A DNA stretch of 64,000 nt, taken from contig NZ_CP017267.1 in the NCBI RefSeq assembly GCF_001870205.1, forward strand, positions 1,724,501 to 1,788,500, in the 5' to 3' direction. Below, one piece after another: positions 4,439 to 60,713 of the stretch; position 1 is the stretch's first letter, and every line of letters begins with the position of its first letter. Position numbers and translations under genes: made by a program. Source of the DNA: Vagococcus teuberi (lineage in GTDB: Bacteria > Bacillota > Bacilli > Lactobacillales > Vagococcaceae). The notes under the pieces are model-generated. The model searched no databases, was not told where the DNA came from, and saw only the letters and a list, made by a program, of their open reading frames with translations.

Positions 4439-5725
4439 TTACATATAGTTCATTTCTTTAGCTTTTGCTTTTAATTCATCTCTAAATTTAGGATGAGCAA
4501 TATTGATTAATCTTTCCGTTCGTTCAAAAATTGTACTACCCTTTAATTCTGCACTCCCATACTCAGTCACTACAGTATCAATATCATTTTTTGATGTTGC
4601 AACAGGAGCACCTTCGAATAAAGTTGGTACGATTGTCGAAATCTCATCATTTTTAGCTGTCGAGTATAAACAAATAATTCCAGTACCACTCTCTGTTAAA
4701 CGTACCCCTTTCATAAAATCAGATTGGCCGCCTGTCGACGAATAGTAAAGCCCTTTCACTCTTTCTGAATTACATTGACCAAGGAAATCAACTTCAATAG
4801 CAGAATTAATCGCAAATAAGTGTTTCATCTGACTAATTGTGTCAAAACTATTTGTGTAGTCACACGGTAACATTAAAATGTCTGGGTTATTATTCATGAA
4901 TTCATAAAGTCGCTTGCTTCCGATGGCAAAAGTCGCAACTGACTTACCATTATGAATTTCTTTTTTACTATTATCAATAACGCCTTTTTCAGTTAAGTCA
5001 ACTAATTTTTCAGGAAGCATTTCTGTATGCAATCCTAAATGTTTTTTCTCTGTCAAATATTCCATTACAGCATTAGGCATTGCACCAAAACCAATTTGCA
5101 ATGTGTCACCATCTTTTACTTTTTTCGCAATTTCACGACCAACAGCTAAATCTTTTTCATTTGGTGTTGGACTAACAAGTTCTGGTAACTCAACATTATT
5201 TTCAATTAAAGCATCGACTTGGCTGATGTGAATTGTATTTTTTTCACCAAATGTTCTTGGCATATTTTCGTTCACTTCTAAAACAATTCGTTTAGCACCT
5301 TCGACTAATGAGGCAACGTAAGATGGACTAGTACCTAATGAAAAGTTTCCATCTTCATCCATTGGCGATACTGTTGCCATAATGATTAATTTGTCACCTT
5401 CACGTTTTTTCAAAATAGAAGGGATGTCAGAAAAATGATTTGGTAGCAAATCAATGTTCCCTGCATTCATTCCTTTTCTATCCATGCCTGATAAAAAGAT
5501 TGAAATTTGGCGTAATTTTGATTTTTCTACATCAACGGTTGGAAAACTAGGTAGCATACGATATAAAGAGTTACCCTCTAATGTATCCATTTCACGAATA
5601 GCATCTAATAATGCGGGTGGTTCACCCGGCATTATAGGGAAAACAATAGCGTCTCCTGGTTCAACGACGCTGACTGCATCTTTTGCTGACTTTATTTTTT
5701 CATTATATAAGTTATCGTAATTCAT
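4439..5725 (-). CDS. Acetyl-CoA hydrolase/transferase family (butyryl- or 4-hydroxybutyrate-type CoA-transferase)
   Basis: Moves CoA between short-chain acids, for example butyryl-CoA + acetate to butyrate + acetyl-CoA. The 428-aa length fits the butyryl/4-hydroxybutyrate CoA-transferase group. The [11 protein letters not shown] block (150-160) and GLHTEMLPE with the likely catalytic Glu235 are characteristic. I chose the ATG at 5725 ([10 protein letters not shown]), with AAGGAGAG seven bases upstream; the reading frame stays open upstream into the crotonase gene, but that part is not credible protein. It lies 40 bp after the crotonase gene. Substrate choice among acetate, propionate, butyrate and 4-hydroxybutyrate is inference. 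Confidence 0.87.
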
Positions 5726-55232: not shown

Positions 55233-55679
55233 ATGGCCAAAGATAAAAAAATCGTTGCTCCCTTTTTAAAGCCTATTGCTATTTTTAGTATTGCTTTAGG
55301 GATAAGTGCAACAACTGCTGTTGTGGACGGTAGTAATTATAAAACCAAAAAAACTGAAACGTCTACAACTGAAACGATAACTCATTCAACTCAAGACAAT
55401 ACAAATACTACAACCAATTACTCGGATACAACTTATAGCTCCGTCCAACAAACTGAACATTCTGTATCTGAACCGCAAGAGAAAACAAAAGACAGTAAAC
55501 AAAACAAATCAAATCACTCGTCATCAGAAGAAAATACCCATTCCTCTGAAAATCAACCATCAAGTAACACCCAAAATATGGAAGAAAAGACTGAAAATAC
55601 GGTAACTCCTGATGCACAAAATGCTACGGTGACCCCTAAAACAAATGAGAATAAAACTGTTATGGGGGGGAATAACTAA
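55233..55679 (+). CDS. Ser/Thr/Asn-rich membrane-anchored surface protein
   Basis: A 148-aa protein with a short basic N-terminus, one hydrophobic segment (residues 9-31) and then about 110 low-complexity residues rich in Thr, Ser, Asn, Glu and Lys. No LPXTG is seen. It looks like a signal-anchored, extended extracellular protein. GGGAG precedes the ATG. Its stop TAA overlaps the next start by one base (TAATG). No family recognised. Confidence 0.68.
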   Translation: MAKDKKIVAPFLKPIAIFSIALGISATTAVVDGSNYKTKKTETSTTETITHSTQDNTNTTTNYSDTTYSSVQQTEHSVSEPQEKTKDSKQNKSNHSSSEENTHSSENQPSSNTQNMEEKTENTVTPDAQNATVTPKTNENKTVMGGNN

Positions 55680-56455
55680 TGGATGCTTTACTAACTTTAA
55701 TCTTGAGTAATATAACCAAATTCTTAAACTACTTAAATATCAACCCAAGGTTACAAAATAAGATTTTGACTGTTGTTAGTGTTTTTCCAACACTATATAT
55801 CTTGCGTATTGTAAAAGGATACTTTCAAAACGGAAATTATCTCAGAATGATACTTTACCTACTGATTTTTATTGTTCTAGCTTACTTTATCGTTTTAAAC
55901 TTTATTTATTATTTTAAAAATCAGAAAGTAAAATGGGATGTCACTAATTTAATTGAAAATATCGTACCGGAAGATGCGACATTTGATGAAACTGTGCAAA
56001 CAAATTCAACCACTCCAAAAATTCAAGGAAAACTATTAACACTAACTTTAAATAATGATAGCGATCAAGTAATTGATACAGTTGTCCATGAATTATTGGA
56101 AAAAAACTATATCACAGCAAAAAAACTCAATGACTATGCTTACGAACTAAATAGCTATACTCTTATTCCTTTCTATAAAATTTCAAAAGGAAAATTGCTG
56201 ATTGGAAGTAGCTACAAAGATTTAAATGAAGTGGCTAGTATCAAAATAAATGATGATGCTGATTCTTTAGTTCCTCTTGGTGTCTTTGTTAATGGTGGAT
56301 CTTATGAAAAAGACGGAATTATTTATAAAGAACCTTATACATTAGAACTACGTGTCAAAGATACGGATGAAGCAAAAAACACTACAGAATCAGAAAACGA
56401 ATCTGTTAAAAAAACACGCATACTCGGTAAACGAAAAAAAAGTCAGAAGAATTAA
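55679..56455 (+). CDS. Membrane protein, DUF6681-like
   Basis: A 258-aa protein with helices at about 28-47 and 56-80, then a soluble part (85-240) and a Lys-rich tail. It resembles DUF6681 proteins of lactic acid bacteria, function unknown. Coupled to the Ser/Thr-rich gene by TAATG. The transposon is inserted 2 bp after its stop codon; the last codons form one arm of the original terminator, so the coding frame is intact. Confidence 0.72.
   Translation: MDALLTLILSNITKFLNYLNINPRLQNKILTVVSVFPTLYILRIVKGYFQNGNYLRMILYLLIFIVLAYFIVLNFIYYFKNQKVKWDVTNLIENIVPEDATFDETVQTNSTTPKIQGKLLTLTLNNDSDQVIDTVVHELLEKNYITAKKLNDYAYELNSYTLIPFYKISKGKLLIGSSYKDLNEVASIKINDDADSLVPLGVFVNGGSYEKDGIIYKEPYTLELRVKDTDEAKNTTESENESVKKTRILGKRKKSQKN
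56436..56449. terminator. Left arm of the disrupted bidirectional terminator
   Basis: AAAAAAGTCAGAAG. Its perfect complement CTTCTGACTTTTTT lies at 59742-59755, on the far side of the transposon. Before insertion these formed a 14-bp stem with loop AATTAAA serving both the DUF6681-like gene and yebC. Confidence 0.88.
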
Positions 56456-56457
56456 AC
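56449..56457. repeat. Target-site duplication, left copy
   Basis: GAATTAAAC, identical to 59734-59742. It equals the terminator loop plus its closing G-C pair. Confidence 0.9.
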
Positions 56458-56484
56458 TAAGTAGTTCAGTTTTGGAGTACAAAA
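56458..56484 (+). repeat. Left terminal inverted repeat
   Basis: 27 bp, TAAGTAGTTCAG...GTACAAAA, identical to the reverse complement of 59707-59733. Similarity continues inward more loosely (TGAAAATGTA versus GACAAAATGTA). Confidence 0.93.
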
Positions 56485-56503
56485 AGTGAAAATGTAAACC
56501 TAA

Positions 56504-56542
56504 ATGAGTATCAAATTGCAACTGAATTTGATACTCGTTTTT
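56504..56542 (+). terminator. Inward-reading terminator at the left end of the transposon
   Basis: Arms GAGTATCAAATT and AATTTGATACTC, then GTTTTTTATT. It would stop transcripts arriving from the DUF6681-like gene. Confidence 0.87.
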
Positions 56543-56694
56543 TATTGTTAAATCAACGTTTGTTGTTAATTTACACCACAAAATGTAAGTTAAAATGTAT
56601 ATAAAAATGCGAACGTGAAATAATTATTGTAGGAATGCAAATTGGTGTGTTAAAATGGTTACAATTTACTAAGCAAAAAGGGGTGCATTTTCCT

Positions 56695-56931
56695 ATGCAA
56701 TTTCTTGAGCCAAAAAATAAGAACGCTAAGTCTGTGGATTGGGAAATATCAGAGCAAGTAAGGGTGATAGTTAAGCAATACGCTGAATATGCAGAGCGTA
56801 CTGAAAGCGAAGCAGTGGATGAATTCTTATTGAACATTTTAGACGATAAGAAGTTTATTGAATGGATTGCCAACAAGCGAAGTAATAAGCGGATTGTTGA
56901 AAAAATGGGTATCAAAGATAGAGTGGGTTGA
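56695..56931 (+). CDS. Small transposon helper protein, possibly ribbon-helix-helix
   Basis: A 78-aa protein. SEQVRVIVKQYAEYAERTES followed by EAVDEFLLNIL is a strand-helix-helix pattern like ribbon-helix-helix DNA-binding proteins; a charged tail (IANKRSNKR) follows. ATG 56695 lies after AAAAAGGGG. Only 6 bp separate it from the transposase gene, so it is probably a regulator or accessory factor of transposition. Assignment by pattern only. Confidence 0.62.
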   Translation: MQFLEPKNKNAKSVDWEISEQVRVIVKQYAEYAERTESEAVDEFLLNILDDKKFIEWIANKRSNKRIVEKMGIKDRVG

Positions 56932-56937
56932 TAGACA

Positions 56938-58890
56938 ATGACCAAGCTTAAAAGATTAGCCACGAAGGAAGATGAAATTGTAGATGTTAAAATTCCGATT
57001 TCAAACGAAGAATTAAAAGATAGGGCTAAACAATATGATTTATTAACTCCAAAACGATTTGCAACAAGGTATAACAAAATGTTGTTCTTGCCAACGTCTT
57101 TTAAATGGAACGGTTCTGAATATCCCATTCAATATAATTACTGCATCAATCCGTTTTGTTGTAATTTTGGGAAAGAACAGCACAAATTCAAAGATGTAAA
57201 AGGGAAACCAAGTCGATATAAAATGACTGGTAGTTCCAAAGATAAAGGTCATAAAGGTATGTACTGCAATGACAATCCTATTGGCAGAGGTGTATCGCAA
57301 AACTGTACAGTAACCCCTTTATCTAATTGGTCTGTTGTTGAAGAAATTAAACGCCTTATAGAAATCAATAGCATCCAAGATGTTGAGCCAGATTATCAAT
57401 TTCATAAAGAAGGCTGCTCGGAAGAAGAATCAACCCCATTCAATGAGCCGAAGCAATTTTACAAAAGGGGGAAAAGTAGGGGCAAATCTCAACGCTATCA
57501 ATGTAAGGCGTGTAAGAAGTTCACTAATGTTCTACCAAAAAGAGAAGAAACCACTACTTATCACCAACAAAAGAACACCATTCTTCCAATGTTCGCTAAG
57601 ATGGTTGTTGGAAGGGTTTCAGTCAGTCGTACTTGTGATATTTTAGGAATTGGAGTTGGAACCTACTATCATAAGCTGGAGTGGCTGTATAGGCGTTGTT
57701 TGGAGTTTTTAGAACGATATGAGACACAACCCCTTCAAACAAAGAAATTTAACGAGATGTGGCTTAATACGGACAAGATGCACTACTACCTAAATAACGT
57801 CCGTAAGAAAGGACAAGGTTCAAAGAAATATACGGGGTTTGAAGACCTTAATATGCAAACGTATATAGTTGTATCTGCTGAGGTCTTATCAAGATATGTG
57901 TTCCGTTCTGATGTTGCCTATGATTGGAATATTTCAATGGATGAATTAAATGAAGATACAAGAAAATTCAAAGAAGACCATCTCAATACTTTTAGTCGTA
58001 AAAATGATAGGTTAGATTGGTCTTATTATCCACAAGAACCATCCGCTAACGATAGCGAAAATAGGAATGCTTATCTTCACGAATTAGGGAAAATTACTAA
58101 TAGGAGTAGATTTGTCGATGGTTTAAATGTTGATGCTCCTTATACTACAACTGCTCACTATTGGTTAATTAAACAAATGGTTAATGCCGACGAATGGCGA
58201 ATGATTAGTGATGATGACTTCTCTATTAGAAACGCCTTTTATAGAGTATTCACGAAAGAATTAAGGTTGAGCGATGCACATCATTTTATTTGCCAAGTTA
58301 ACAAGACGAAAAGCAGAAAACAATGCTTAAAAGAATTCGGACAAGCAAAAGCAGAACTGCTCGATTGGGGAGATATCAGAGGATTCAAAACAAAGTTTCT
58401 ACGGACTTTGGCATCTCATTATCTAACTGAATTACTAACAAGTCATCAATTCCACGAAGAGGCTATTAGTAAAGATGGAGAAAGATATCGCAAATATGCC
58501 GATAACCCTATCAAACATCCATTAGCCACTAAGGATAAAGGATTTTATTCAGTTGATTGTAGAACGGATTTATCTGCTCTGGAACCAAACGAAATCGCAA
58601 AGATGCTATTAAATGTTAATGACCATTCGACCAATAGCTTTATTCAACAGATAAGACGTTATATATCATCTCTTGAAAGACCATTAACAACAGCTCGTGG
58701 TGATAAGAAGAGCTATATTTACGCTAACTTCAATCCGAAGTATGCTCAATTTGCGATTACAATTCTAAGAACTTACTACAACTTTTGTCGCCCTTTTAAA
58801 TCAGCGGATAAAAAGGTTTTGACACCTGCTCAAAGATTAGGGATTACAGATAAACAATTTGATTGGAAAGATATAATTTATTTCAAATGA
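56938..58890 (+). CDS. Transposase-like protein of the dfrG element
   Basis: A 650-aa protein with a Cys-rich N-terminal part (Cys69, 74, 75, 110, 123), a second zinc-ribbon piece QRYQCKACKKFTN (Cys189, Cys192) like IS1-type insertion proteins, a helix-turn-helix (SVSRTCDILGIGVGTYYHKL) and a C-terminal YYNFCRPFKS...LTPAQRLGIT segment typical of DDE transposases. Acidic candidates include LNTDKMHYYL and MISDDDFSIR. It is the only large gene inside the inverted repeats. Called an insertion-element protein by resemblance; the exact family is unknown to me. Confidence 0.8.
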   Translation: MTKLKRLATKEDEIVDVKIPISNEELKDRAKQYDLLTPKRFATRYNKMLFLPTSFKWNGSEYPIQYNYCINPFCCNFGKEQHKFKDVKGKPSRYKMTGSSKDKGHKGMYCNDNPIGRGVSQNCTVTPLSNWSVVEEIKRLIEINSIQDVEPDYQFHKEGCSEEESTPFNEPKQFYKRGKSRGKSQRYQCKACKKFTNVLPKREETTTYHQQKNTILPMFAKMVVGRVSVSRTCDILGIGVGTYYHKLEWLYRRCLEFLERYETQPLQTKKFNEMWLNTDKMHYYLNNVRKKGQGSKKYTGFEDLNMQTYIVVSAEVLSRYVFRSDVAYDWNISMDELNEDTRKFKEDHLNTFSRKNDRLDWSYYPQEPSANDSENRNAYLHELGKITNRSRFVDGLNVDAPYTTTAHYWLIKQMVNADEWRMISDDDFSIRNAFYRVFTKELRLSDAHHFICQVNKTKSRKQCLKEFGQAKAELLDWGDIRGFKTKFLRTLASHYLTELLTSHQFHEEAISKDGERYRKYADNPIKHPLATKDKGFYSVDCRTDLSALEPNEIAKMLLNVNDHSTNSFIQQIRRYISSLERPLTTARGDKKSYIYANFNPKYAQFAITILRTYYNFCRPFKSADKKVLTPAQRLGITDKQFDWKDIIYFK

Positions 58891-58894
58891 CAAA

Positions 58895-58921
58895 AAGAGC
58901 TTGGAGTAATCCCAAGCTCTT
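58895..58921. terminator. Bidirectional terminator between transposase and dfrG
   Basis: Arms AAGAGCTTGG and CCAAGCTCTT, 7-base loop, A/T runs outside. Confidence 0.83.
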
Positions 58922-58961
58922 GTGCTTTATCTTTACTGTTCTTCTTCAATTAACGCACCCG

Positions 58962-59459
58962 TTAACTCAATAAGTTTTTTCTTTCATATACATGAAAATA
59001 GTAGTTATACGGATTTTTATCATTCTTTATCCCTTTTTGGGCAAATACCTCATTCCATTCCTCATAATTCACTTCTGGAAAAAAAGTATCTCCTTCGAAT
59101 TCATGATGTATTTTTGTGATGTACATTTTCTCAACATAAGGGAAAAACAAATTATAAATCTGTTCTCCTCCGAAAATAAAAATTTCTTCTTCGTTTTTAC
59201 ATAACTCAAAAACATCTTCTATTGAATGAACAATTTCACAACCATTAAAGGTAAACCCCTTATCTCTCGTCAGAATAATATTTCTTCTGTCAGGTAAGGC
59301 TCTTCCGATTGATTCAAGGTTCTTCCTACCTAATATTATCGGATGTCCCTTTGTAGTATTTTTAACATATTCCCAGTCCTTGGGAATCCTCCAAGGAATG
59401 TCATTCTCTTTGCCAATCACTCTATTCTTATCCATCGCAGCAATCAAAGAAACTTTCAT
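58962..59459 (-). CDS. dfrG: Trimethoprim-resistant dihydrofolate reductase DfrG
   Basis: Reduces dihydrofolate to tetrahydrofolate; a variant enzyme insensitive to trimethoprim. The 165-aa protein, MKVSLIAAMDKNRVIGKEND to NYYFHVYERKNLLS, matches the DfrG group as I remember it, in length and sequence, and is close to DfrK. NADPH motifs GRKNLESIG and IFGGEQIY are intact. It lies inside the transposon, opposite in direction to the transposase. AAAGG lies 11 bases before the ATG. An acquired resistance gene, not the housekeeping folA. Confidence 0.87.
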   Translation of the reverse strand: MKVSLIAAMDKNRVIGKENDIPWRIPKDWEYVKNTTKGHPIILGRKNLESIGRALPDRRNIILTRDKGFTFNGCEIVHSIEDVFELCKNEEEIFIFGGEQIYNLFFPYVEKMYITKIHHEFEGDTFFPEVNYEEWNEVFAQKGIKNDKNPYNYYFHVYERKNLLS

Positions 59460-59462
59460 TTA

Positions 59463-59567
59463 TAACACAGCCTTTTTAACTAATTTACCATCTAATTTCT
59501 TATTTCTATCAAAAAACCTTTTCTCATTATCCTGCCCGTTAGTTGAATAAGCAATTTTTTCTATAAG
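59463..59567 (-). other. Open 35-codon stretch ending at the dfrG start
   Basis: A frame reading EKIAYSTNGQDNEKRFFDRN and onward ends in TAA directly abutting the dfrG ATG. It has no good start codon and follows a stop, so it looks like the 3' remnant of a gene picked up with dfrG, or simply leader. The rest of 59568-59677 is AT-rich, with repeated AAAATG motifs and no gene. Confidence 0.42.
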
Positions 59568-59677
59568 TTATATTATCATAATACCACAAAATCACAAATT
59601 TTCATTCAATTATCATTTTCAATTGCATTTTATAAATCATTTTGTATGTAATTTGGTATGTAAGTTAAAATGAAAAA

Positions 59678-59731
59678 AGTAGTCCATTTTGAAGTACATT
59701 TTGTCATTTTGTACTCCAAAACTGAACTACT
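59678..59731 (-). terminator. Right-end terminator formed by the inverted repeat
   Basis: On the minus strand AGTAGTTCAGTTTTGGAGTA (inside the repeat) pairs with a nearby copy ending GGACTACT, about 21 bp with three imperfections, followed by TTTTTT. It reads inward and would stop yebC transcripts before dfrG. Confidence 0.75.
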
Positions 59732-59733
59732 TA
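59707..59733 (-). repeat. Right terminal inverted repeat
   Basis: 27 bp, exact inverse of 56458-56484. Confidence 0.93.
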
Positions 59734-59742
59734 GAATTAAAC
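59734..59742. repeat. Target-site duplication, right copy
   Basis: GAATTAAAC, identical to 56449-56457; followed by the right terminator arm (to 59755). Confidence 0.9.
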
Positions 59743-59763
59743 TTCTGACTTTTTTATTTACTA

Positions 59764-60480
59764 CTAATCCATATTTACATTATGGAAAATTTGTTGAACA
59801 TCTTCTAATTCGTCTAAAGCATCAATCATTTTTTCAAATTGAGCTAGGTCGTCTTCAGATAATTCGACTTCATTTTGAGCAATCATTTGAATTTCAGCTA
59901 CGGAAAATTCTGTAATTCCTTTTTCTTTTAATGCTTCTTGAATCGCGTGGAAATCACTTGATTCACCGTAAACGATGATTTGGTCTTCTTCTTCGAACAC
60001 ATCTTTGACTTCGATATCTTTTTCTAATAGATATTCAAAAATTTCATCCACGTCTTCGCCTTTAAAACCAAAAATCGCTGTGTTGTCAAACATGTATGCT
60101 ACAGCACCTGATACACCCATGTTCCCACCATTTTTACCAAAAGCTGCTCGAACGTCTGCTGCTGTACGATTAACATTGTTTGTTAACGTATCAACAATCA
60201 CCATCGAACCATTTGGCCCAAATCCTTCATAGCGTAATTCTGAATAATTTTCATCGCCGGATCCTTTTGCTTTTTCGATAGCACGATCAATAATATGTTT
60301 TGGTACATTGTATGTTTTTGCGCGATCAATAACGAAACGAAGTTTTTGATTAGAGTGCGGATCTGGATCACCTGATTTTGCTGCTGCATAAATTTCAATT
60401 CCAAATTTGGCATAAACTTTACTGTTATTTGCATCTTTAGCTGTTTTCTTAGCTACGATATTAGCCCATTTACGTCCCAT
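59764..60480 (-). CDS. yebC: YebC/PmpR-family protein
   Basis: A 238-aa member of the YebC family, known as a DNA-binding regulator and, in recent work, a translation factor for polyproline stretches. [19 protein letters not shown] and [20 protein letters not shown] are family hallmarks, with an acidic C-terminal domain. I chose ATG 60480. Its terminator was split by the transposon 8 bp past the stop codon. Confidence 0.93.
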
Positions 60481-60713
60481 TAGTCTCACTTCTCTTTCTT
60501 AATGTATTGTTTCAGTTGTAACACAAAAACGTCCTGTTTTATTATACTTGCTTATTAGCATTTCGCAAAGTTTTTTTTTCATGATTAATACAATTCATTG
60601 ATTCTAGTCCGTTTTTCATTTTTTTATCCTTAACACCTTTTAATTAATCTTGATATAAGCTATTCTAAAGTAGTAATAACTGTTCCTTACAGATAGAAAG
60701 AGGTTTATATTTT

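Follow-up and report, generated by a model that had tools for sequence, protein, structure and literature searches.

A dfrG transposon inserted at the dyad of a terminator-like hairpin, and a strong preference for such targets among its relatives

The window is the whole 64,000-nucleotide stretch of Vagococcus teuberi DNA analyzed here. At positions 56458 to 59733 it carries a 3,276-bp transposon with perfect 27-bp ends, TAAGTAGTTCAGTTTTGGAGTACAAAA (56458-56484 and 59707-59733), flanked by a 9-bp target duplication, GAATTAAAC (56449-56457 and 59734-59742). The element carries a 98-aa ORF and a 650-aa transposase on one strand and dfrG on the other; the genome has a single copy of it. A DUF6681 protein gene on the plus strand and yebC on the minus strand converge upon the insertion site, and the TAA stop codon of the DUF6681 gene falls within the left copy of the duplication, with the gene intact. 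A terminator-like hairpin between these two genes is split by the element exactly at its dyad. The features are as follows.

55679..56455, + strand: DUF6681 protein gene, left neighbor, intact (PF20386, E = 2.8e-52)
56436..56448, no strand: left arm of the split terminator hairpin (window sequence and the native empty site in L157)
56449..56457, no strand: left copy of the 9-bp duplication GAATTAAAC (end mapping)
56458..56484, + strand: left terminal inverted repeat, 27 bp (identical to the Tn7491 sequence printed in PMC10763498)
56502..56540, + strand: the element's own left-end terminator-like hairpin (16 pairs, T-tail)
56635..56931, + strand: small ORF, 98 aa (elsewhere annotated as 98, 78 or 76 aa), accessory gene (tblastn in relatives)
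56938..58890, + strand: transposase, 650 aa, remotely IS1-like in a zinc-ribbon region (profile matches)
58895..58921, no strand: terminator-like hairpin, reading on both strands, between transposase and dfrG (hairpin scan)
58962..59459, - strand: dfrG, trimethoprim-resistant dihydrofolate reductase, cargo (NF000143, 391.9 bits against a cut-off of 365)
59707..59733, - strand: right terminal inverted repeat, 27 bp (end mapping)
59734..59742, no strand: right copy of GAATTAAAC (end mapping)
59743..59755, no strand: right arm of the split terminator hairpin (window sequence and the native empty site in L157)
59764..60489, - strand: yebC, right neighbor, intact (family match)

The element is the known dfrG transposon Tn7491, first seen inside Tn6198 of Listeria. 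Its 27-bp ends match the sequence printed in PMC10763498, and it shares with the transposon of that report the length of about 3.3 kb, dfrG and the 9-bp duplication. The available part of PMC10763498 spells the name two ways, Tn4791 and Tn7491. It also places a second copy between the convergent genes csbB and saeS, a location that fits the target rule developed below.

The original prediction, made from the window alone, was that the flanks of the element are perfect 14-bp complements, and this is borne out by AAAAAAGTCAGAAG at 56436-56449 and CTTCTGACTTTTTT at 59742-59755. The true centre at this site outscores all 756 other positions that lie within 400 bp of it and more than 8 bp away. An empty site was expected to carry the hairpin with a single GAATTAAAC, and L157, an element-free genome of the same genus that is 97% identical across yebC, reads precisely that, as AAAAAAAAGTCAGAAGAATTAAACTTCTGACTTTTTT. 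Two more genomes of the genus, L158 and L159, have a diverged hairpin at the empty site, and the other 10 of the 13 have a different sequence there.

To collect other copies, translated searches were made with the transposase. It turned up in 114 plasmid records, of which 104 reach 99% identity or more, and in three from phages, one being partial. Seven species genomes contain it too, three with a protein of 100% identity and four with one of 56-64%. By taxonomic rank, the genome searches gave matches in 1 of 29 genomes of the same family, which is the window itself, 4 of 395 of the same order and 20 of 398 of the same class. A profile built from twelve family members, in which the relatives are 46-64% identical to the window's protein, matches 71 of 348, 43 of 261, 3 of 39 and 2 of 15 genomes in four orders of Bacilli, respectively, fragments counted. 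Among viral contigs there is only the phage-type copy, L009/L060, and one fragment, L061. The records L009 and L017 are Staphylococcus phage phiSa2wa-st1633, an S. aureus phage in whose genome Tn7491 has the gene for the major tail protein on one side and a DUF3168 gene on the other; no strong dyad marks this site. No ends were found for the copies from Acidovorax (L055) and Polaromonas (L056), the best pair in the latter scoring 16/27, which we take as chance. L054, from a Pseudomonas aeruginosa plasmid, is a 26%-identical relative with different ends.

For Tn7491 the sample was drawn from the 106 plasmid records of at least 95% identity, 20 of which were used, together with one of the three phage records. 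Ends of the relatives were found de novo, with no hairpin criterion, by requiring an inverted repeat of at least 22/27, a cut chosen after the scores were seen, and a duplication of at least 8/9; the nearest excluded pair, L126, has 20/27 and 8/9, with no family-type ends and no hairpin seen. Acceptable ends came from 20 of 68 loci in one set and 17 of 33 in another; of the others, many are fragments or truncated at contig ends. Rows were dropped where the contig ends within the element (L002/L029), where the right end is rearranged and the left flank is shared with a kept row (L011 and L023 with L019, L027 with L025), and where the insertion is the same as in a kept row (L001, L016, L017, L021, L028, L032, L060, L062, L152). 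After duplicate removal the set has 54 insertions, of which 19 belong to Tn7491 and 35 to relatives. The duplication is a perfect 9 bp at 51 of the 54, a length that was itself a search criterion for the relatives' ends; L086 and L107 have 8/9, and L013 has a 10-bp repeat that was scored in the 9-bp frame and scores more strongly, 28.0, when rescored at 10 bp. Elements across the family measure 2.0-7.7 kb, several with cargo. A protein scan of the cargo gave any match in 5 of 10, and in the larger relatives (L136 8141-10636, L135 3062-5020, L127 9270-10226) the types are an ABC-2 type transporter protein, an FtsX-like permease and a sub-threshold integrase-core match.

When the empty sites of these copies are rebuilt, a strong dyad, meaning a score of at least 20 in the scheme used here, is centred within 1.5 bp of the duplication at 42 of the 54 (13/19 for Tn7491, 29/35 for relatives). 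The Tn7491 figure counts homologous hairpins repeatedly, and collapsing L022/L024/L058 and L025/L059 makes it 10/16. Comparable centring occurs at 15 of 4,000 positions picked at random from similar DNA, a background that, as in the tract counts below, counts some stretches twice and retains some element DNA, and at 0 of 160 chance repeat/duplication pairs from the fetched loci. Thresholds of 16, 18, 22 and 25 return 43, 42, 41 and 35 of the 54. A strong hairpin lies within 20 bp at 43 sites; its centre coincides with that of the duplication at 22 and is no more than 1.5 bp away at 42, while among 1,500 random window positions a strong hairpin lies that close at 46 and is centred within 2 bp at 2. 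Ranked against its own flanking positions, the true centre is in the top 1% at 13/19 Tn7491 and 29/35 relative sites. The centring result leans on half-step offsets and small bulges, which the controls were equally allowed; in exact register without gaps, just 22 of the 54 sites have at least 6 of 8 inner pairs. Coincidence at a single site, which the window alone left in play, is rejected by the 54-site set.

Hairpin targeting is thus a strong preference with exceptions, and the original prediction that the transposase recognizes a hairpin is supported as such, but 12 of the 54 sites have no strong centred dyad. These are L003, L009, L012, L015, L018 and L019 for Tn7491 and L054, L091, L107, L142, L143 and L150 for relatives. 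L054 has a perfect terminator-like hairpin 3.5 bp off centre, the dyads at L107 and L150 are weaker or shifted, and L012, L018 and L143 have neither a dyad nor spaced tracts. Family-wide, what holds is that the duplication has its centre on the dyad; it is not strictly the loop plus its closing pair, the scored loops having 4-11 bases. At L026 (about 1980-2020) the target resembles a T-box-type leader terminator, with a GGGTGG motif, which we take to be a T-box-type leader feature, running into the duplication.

Native empty sites were sought for other copies as well. The empty form of the L010 site is present in L171 and carries the hairpin, and that of the L015 site is inside L024, where the dyad is weak. 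L025 and L059 share one hairpin of enterococcal plasmids, downstream of a zeta-toxin region, that was entered in opposite orientations; its empty form, with the T-run broken, is in pAMbeta1 (L172). Hence native, hairpin-bearing empty sites are at hand in three cases: the window, L010 and the L025/L059 hairpin. A homologous hairpin by an SOS-peptidase gene was likewise entered in opposite orientations in L024 and L058, and L022 resembles L058.

The question of what is being read, fold or bases, is approached with the sites oriented by transposase. The strongest base signals are A at -9 to -12, in 78-87% of the 54 sites, and T at +9 to +13, in 72-91%, forming tracts 9-12 bp outside the duplication on both sides. 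The duplication itself has a mild A/T bias of up to 0.45 bit, and the inner columns, -7 to -1 and +1 to +6, have a base preference of no more than 0.17 bit. Nevertheless the arms of a site pair with each other: 12-bp arms form 7.44 pairs with their own partners against 5.22 when arms are shuffled among sites, and G-C pairs alone number 2.44 against 1.20, neither being reached in 20,000 shuffles. A symmetric reading of bases would leave a column preference, so pairing without one indicates self-complementarity. The original prediction had left folded DNA and a palindromic target as alternatives; arms that pair without shared sequence favor recognition of folded or self-complementary DNA, and speak less for a fixed palindromic sequence.

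The tracts raise the possibility that the transposase reads the symmetric pair of A-tract and T-tract alone, as bent or narrow-groove DNA, and that hairpins are hit incidentally, terminators carrying tracts of this kind. Tracts with at least 3 of 4 bases on both sides are found at 41 of the 54 sites, and they persist at six of the twelve sites lacking a strong centred dyad (L003, L009, L015, L019, L091, L142). However, the same tracts are common in the background, at 5,409 of 421,992 positions, and only 1.1% of those have at least 6 of 8 inner pairs, against 19 of the 41 sites (p = 1.9e-26); with register shifts allowed the comparison is 4.3% against 30 of 41. Moreover, arms are paired at L004, L105 and L133 as well, where the A's number only 2 of 4. 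Tract spacing is therefore insufficient by itself, and we consider reading of tracts alone improbable. Coupling to transcription termination, by paused polymerase, nascent RNA hairpin or supercoiling and not by the DNA fold itself, draws on the fact that most hairpin targets are terminator-like, with an A-run and a T-run both of at least 4 at 44 of the 54 sites. The sites with a run on one side come in both senses, 4 with the right T-run only and 3 with the left A-run only, which in this small sample gives no sign of a transcription direction, and we regard such coupling as unlikely.

A third account is that insertion is random or merely AT-biased and the survivors are those that fell outside genes. 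Among the 20 plasmids and the single phage sampled for Tn7491, no junction is crossed by a listed CDS, apart from 3 bp at L015, although this is weak support as the gene table is incomplete and omits pseudogenes. Selection for safe positions cannot account for centring within 1.5 bp at 42 of the 43 hairpin sites, where the distribution of offsets contradicts random insertion, nor does it explain the repeated entry of the same or homologous hairpins in both orientations. We find this account scarcely credible. Most insertions hit dyads resembling intrinsic terminators, with the duplication centred on them, and very likely they do so by way of a self-complementary target that most likely has the form of a cruciform or incipient hairpin.

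The best reading of these sequence comparisons is symmetrical attack on both strands by a remotely IS1-like transposase, about a site that is self-complementary and probably a cruciform. Two transposase subunits would engage a two-fold-symmetric, self-complementary target between the A/T-tracts, its form most likely a cruciform or incipient hairpin. Each 3' end of the transposon would be joined at the 5' side of a loop, one per strand, and filling in of the 9-nt gaps would duplicate the loop. The element's left-end terminator would then take the place of the broken one. If this is true, it would explain how the dfrG transposon travels among staphylococci, enterococci, Listeria and environmental Bacilli while doing genes little harm, and the target rule predicts where to look for it. 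It would also offer a natural route to safe insertion of DNA at gene ends, and make cruciform formation at terminators in living cells testable, with each insertion recording one such event.

The left-end hairpin, usually terminator-like, recurs among the relatives. It (bases 36-95 within the element) is more stable than every one of 100 dinucleotide shuffles in 35 of the 36 distinct elements, the exception being L054 with 1 of 100 shuffles as low. It is usually followed by T's and can be aligned in 34 of 35 relatives. These hairpins lie about 43-84 bp inside the end, with an outer stem that varies between elements; the core, which is AATTCGCA-like, is more conserved. Under a strict filter for a stem plus a T-run, 24 of 36 left ends and 13 of 36 right ends pass, compared with 21 of 360 shuffled ends. 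The covariation is mixed, with 63 double-change cells against 33.7 in shuffles (0/500), but two of five measures are at or below shuffles, and partners slid by -1 beat the chosen register. Perhaps the left-end hairpin replaces the terminator broken by insertion, and it may also shield the transposase gene from read-in.

Next to the transposase gene in 34 of the 35 relatives, tblastn picks up the 98-aa ORF, and hence these look like two-gene elements. Pfam and NCBIfam scans gave it no convincing family match; by eye we presume a resemblance to ribbon-helix-helix proteins.

The transposase scores 28.4 bits against the NCBIfam IS1 model, below its cut-off of 100. The weak match spans residues 172-287, around the zinc-ribbon region, and is found at E = 0.01 or better in 9 of 12 family members. 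Conservation among the family proteins makes D279, D425/D427 and E580 candidates for the catalytic acidic residues. A sequence search against solved structures found no transposase relative, only two peroxiredoxin sequences at E = 1.2 that we take as chance. IS1 elements make target duplications of 8-9 bp, as the sites of the Tn7491 family do. They also have an insA-insB frameshift organization; the Tn7491 transposase differs in this, being a single 650-aa frame as against an IS1 model of 199 positions.

Other mobile elements with structured or palindromic intergenic targets, like those of the Tn7491 family, are the REP- or palindrome-targeting insertion sequences and the group IIC introns. 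Targets of the former are specific repeated sequences, and the latter move through RNA and insert beside a terminator. In the literature searched, of which coverage was partial, we found neither Tn7491 nor any IS1-like element reported to target terminators. The available part of PMC10763498 describes no target rule and has the word "terminator" 0 times, and that of PMC6496109 has nothing on terminator targeting. The target rule for Tn7491 thus appears new.

The closest precedent found for structure-directed insertion is IS1272, of the IS1182 family. As described in the available part of PMC5678879, it targets inverted repeats that vary in sequence and are proposed to be recognized as stem-loops, and it replaces the stem-loop with no duplication. 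Comparing the proteins via models alone, we find no IS1182-named model among the weak Pfam and NCBIfam matches of the Tn7491 transposase. We lean slightly toward a fuller picture in which a DDE-type transposase would read extruded cruciforms or self-complementarity in double-stranded DNA, attack both loops in a symmetrical way, duplicate the loop and bring a built-in replacement terminator, making this a terminator-swapping family across Bacilli with a remote Pseudomonas relative. The duplication step of that picture corresponds to a hypothetical "pathway c" in the legend to Fig. 13 of PMC5678879, drawn there as an alternative, in which both loops of a cruciform are attacked on their 5' side and the loop ends up duplicated. 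Like IS1272, the Tn7491 family uses inverted-repeat targets of varied sequence (42 of 54 sites), but where IS1272 removes the stem-loop, insertion in the Tn7491 family leaves both arms in place and the loop duplicated, which matches "pathway c".
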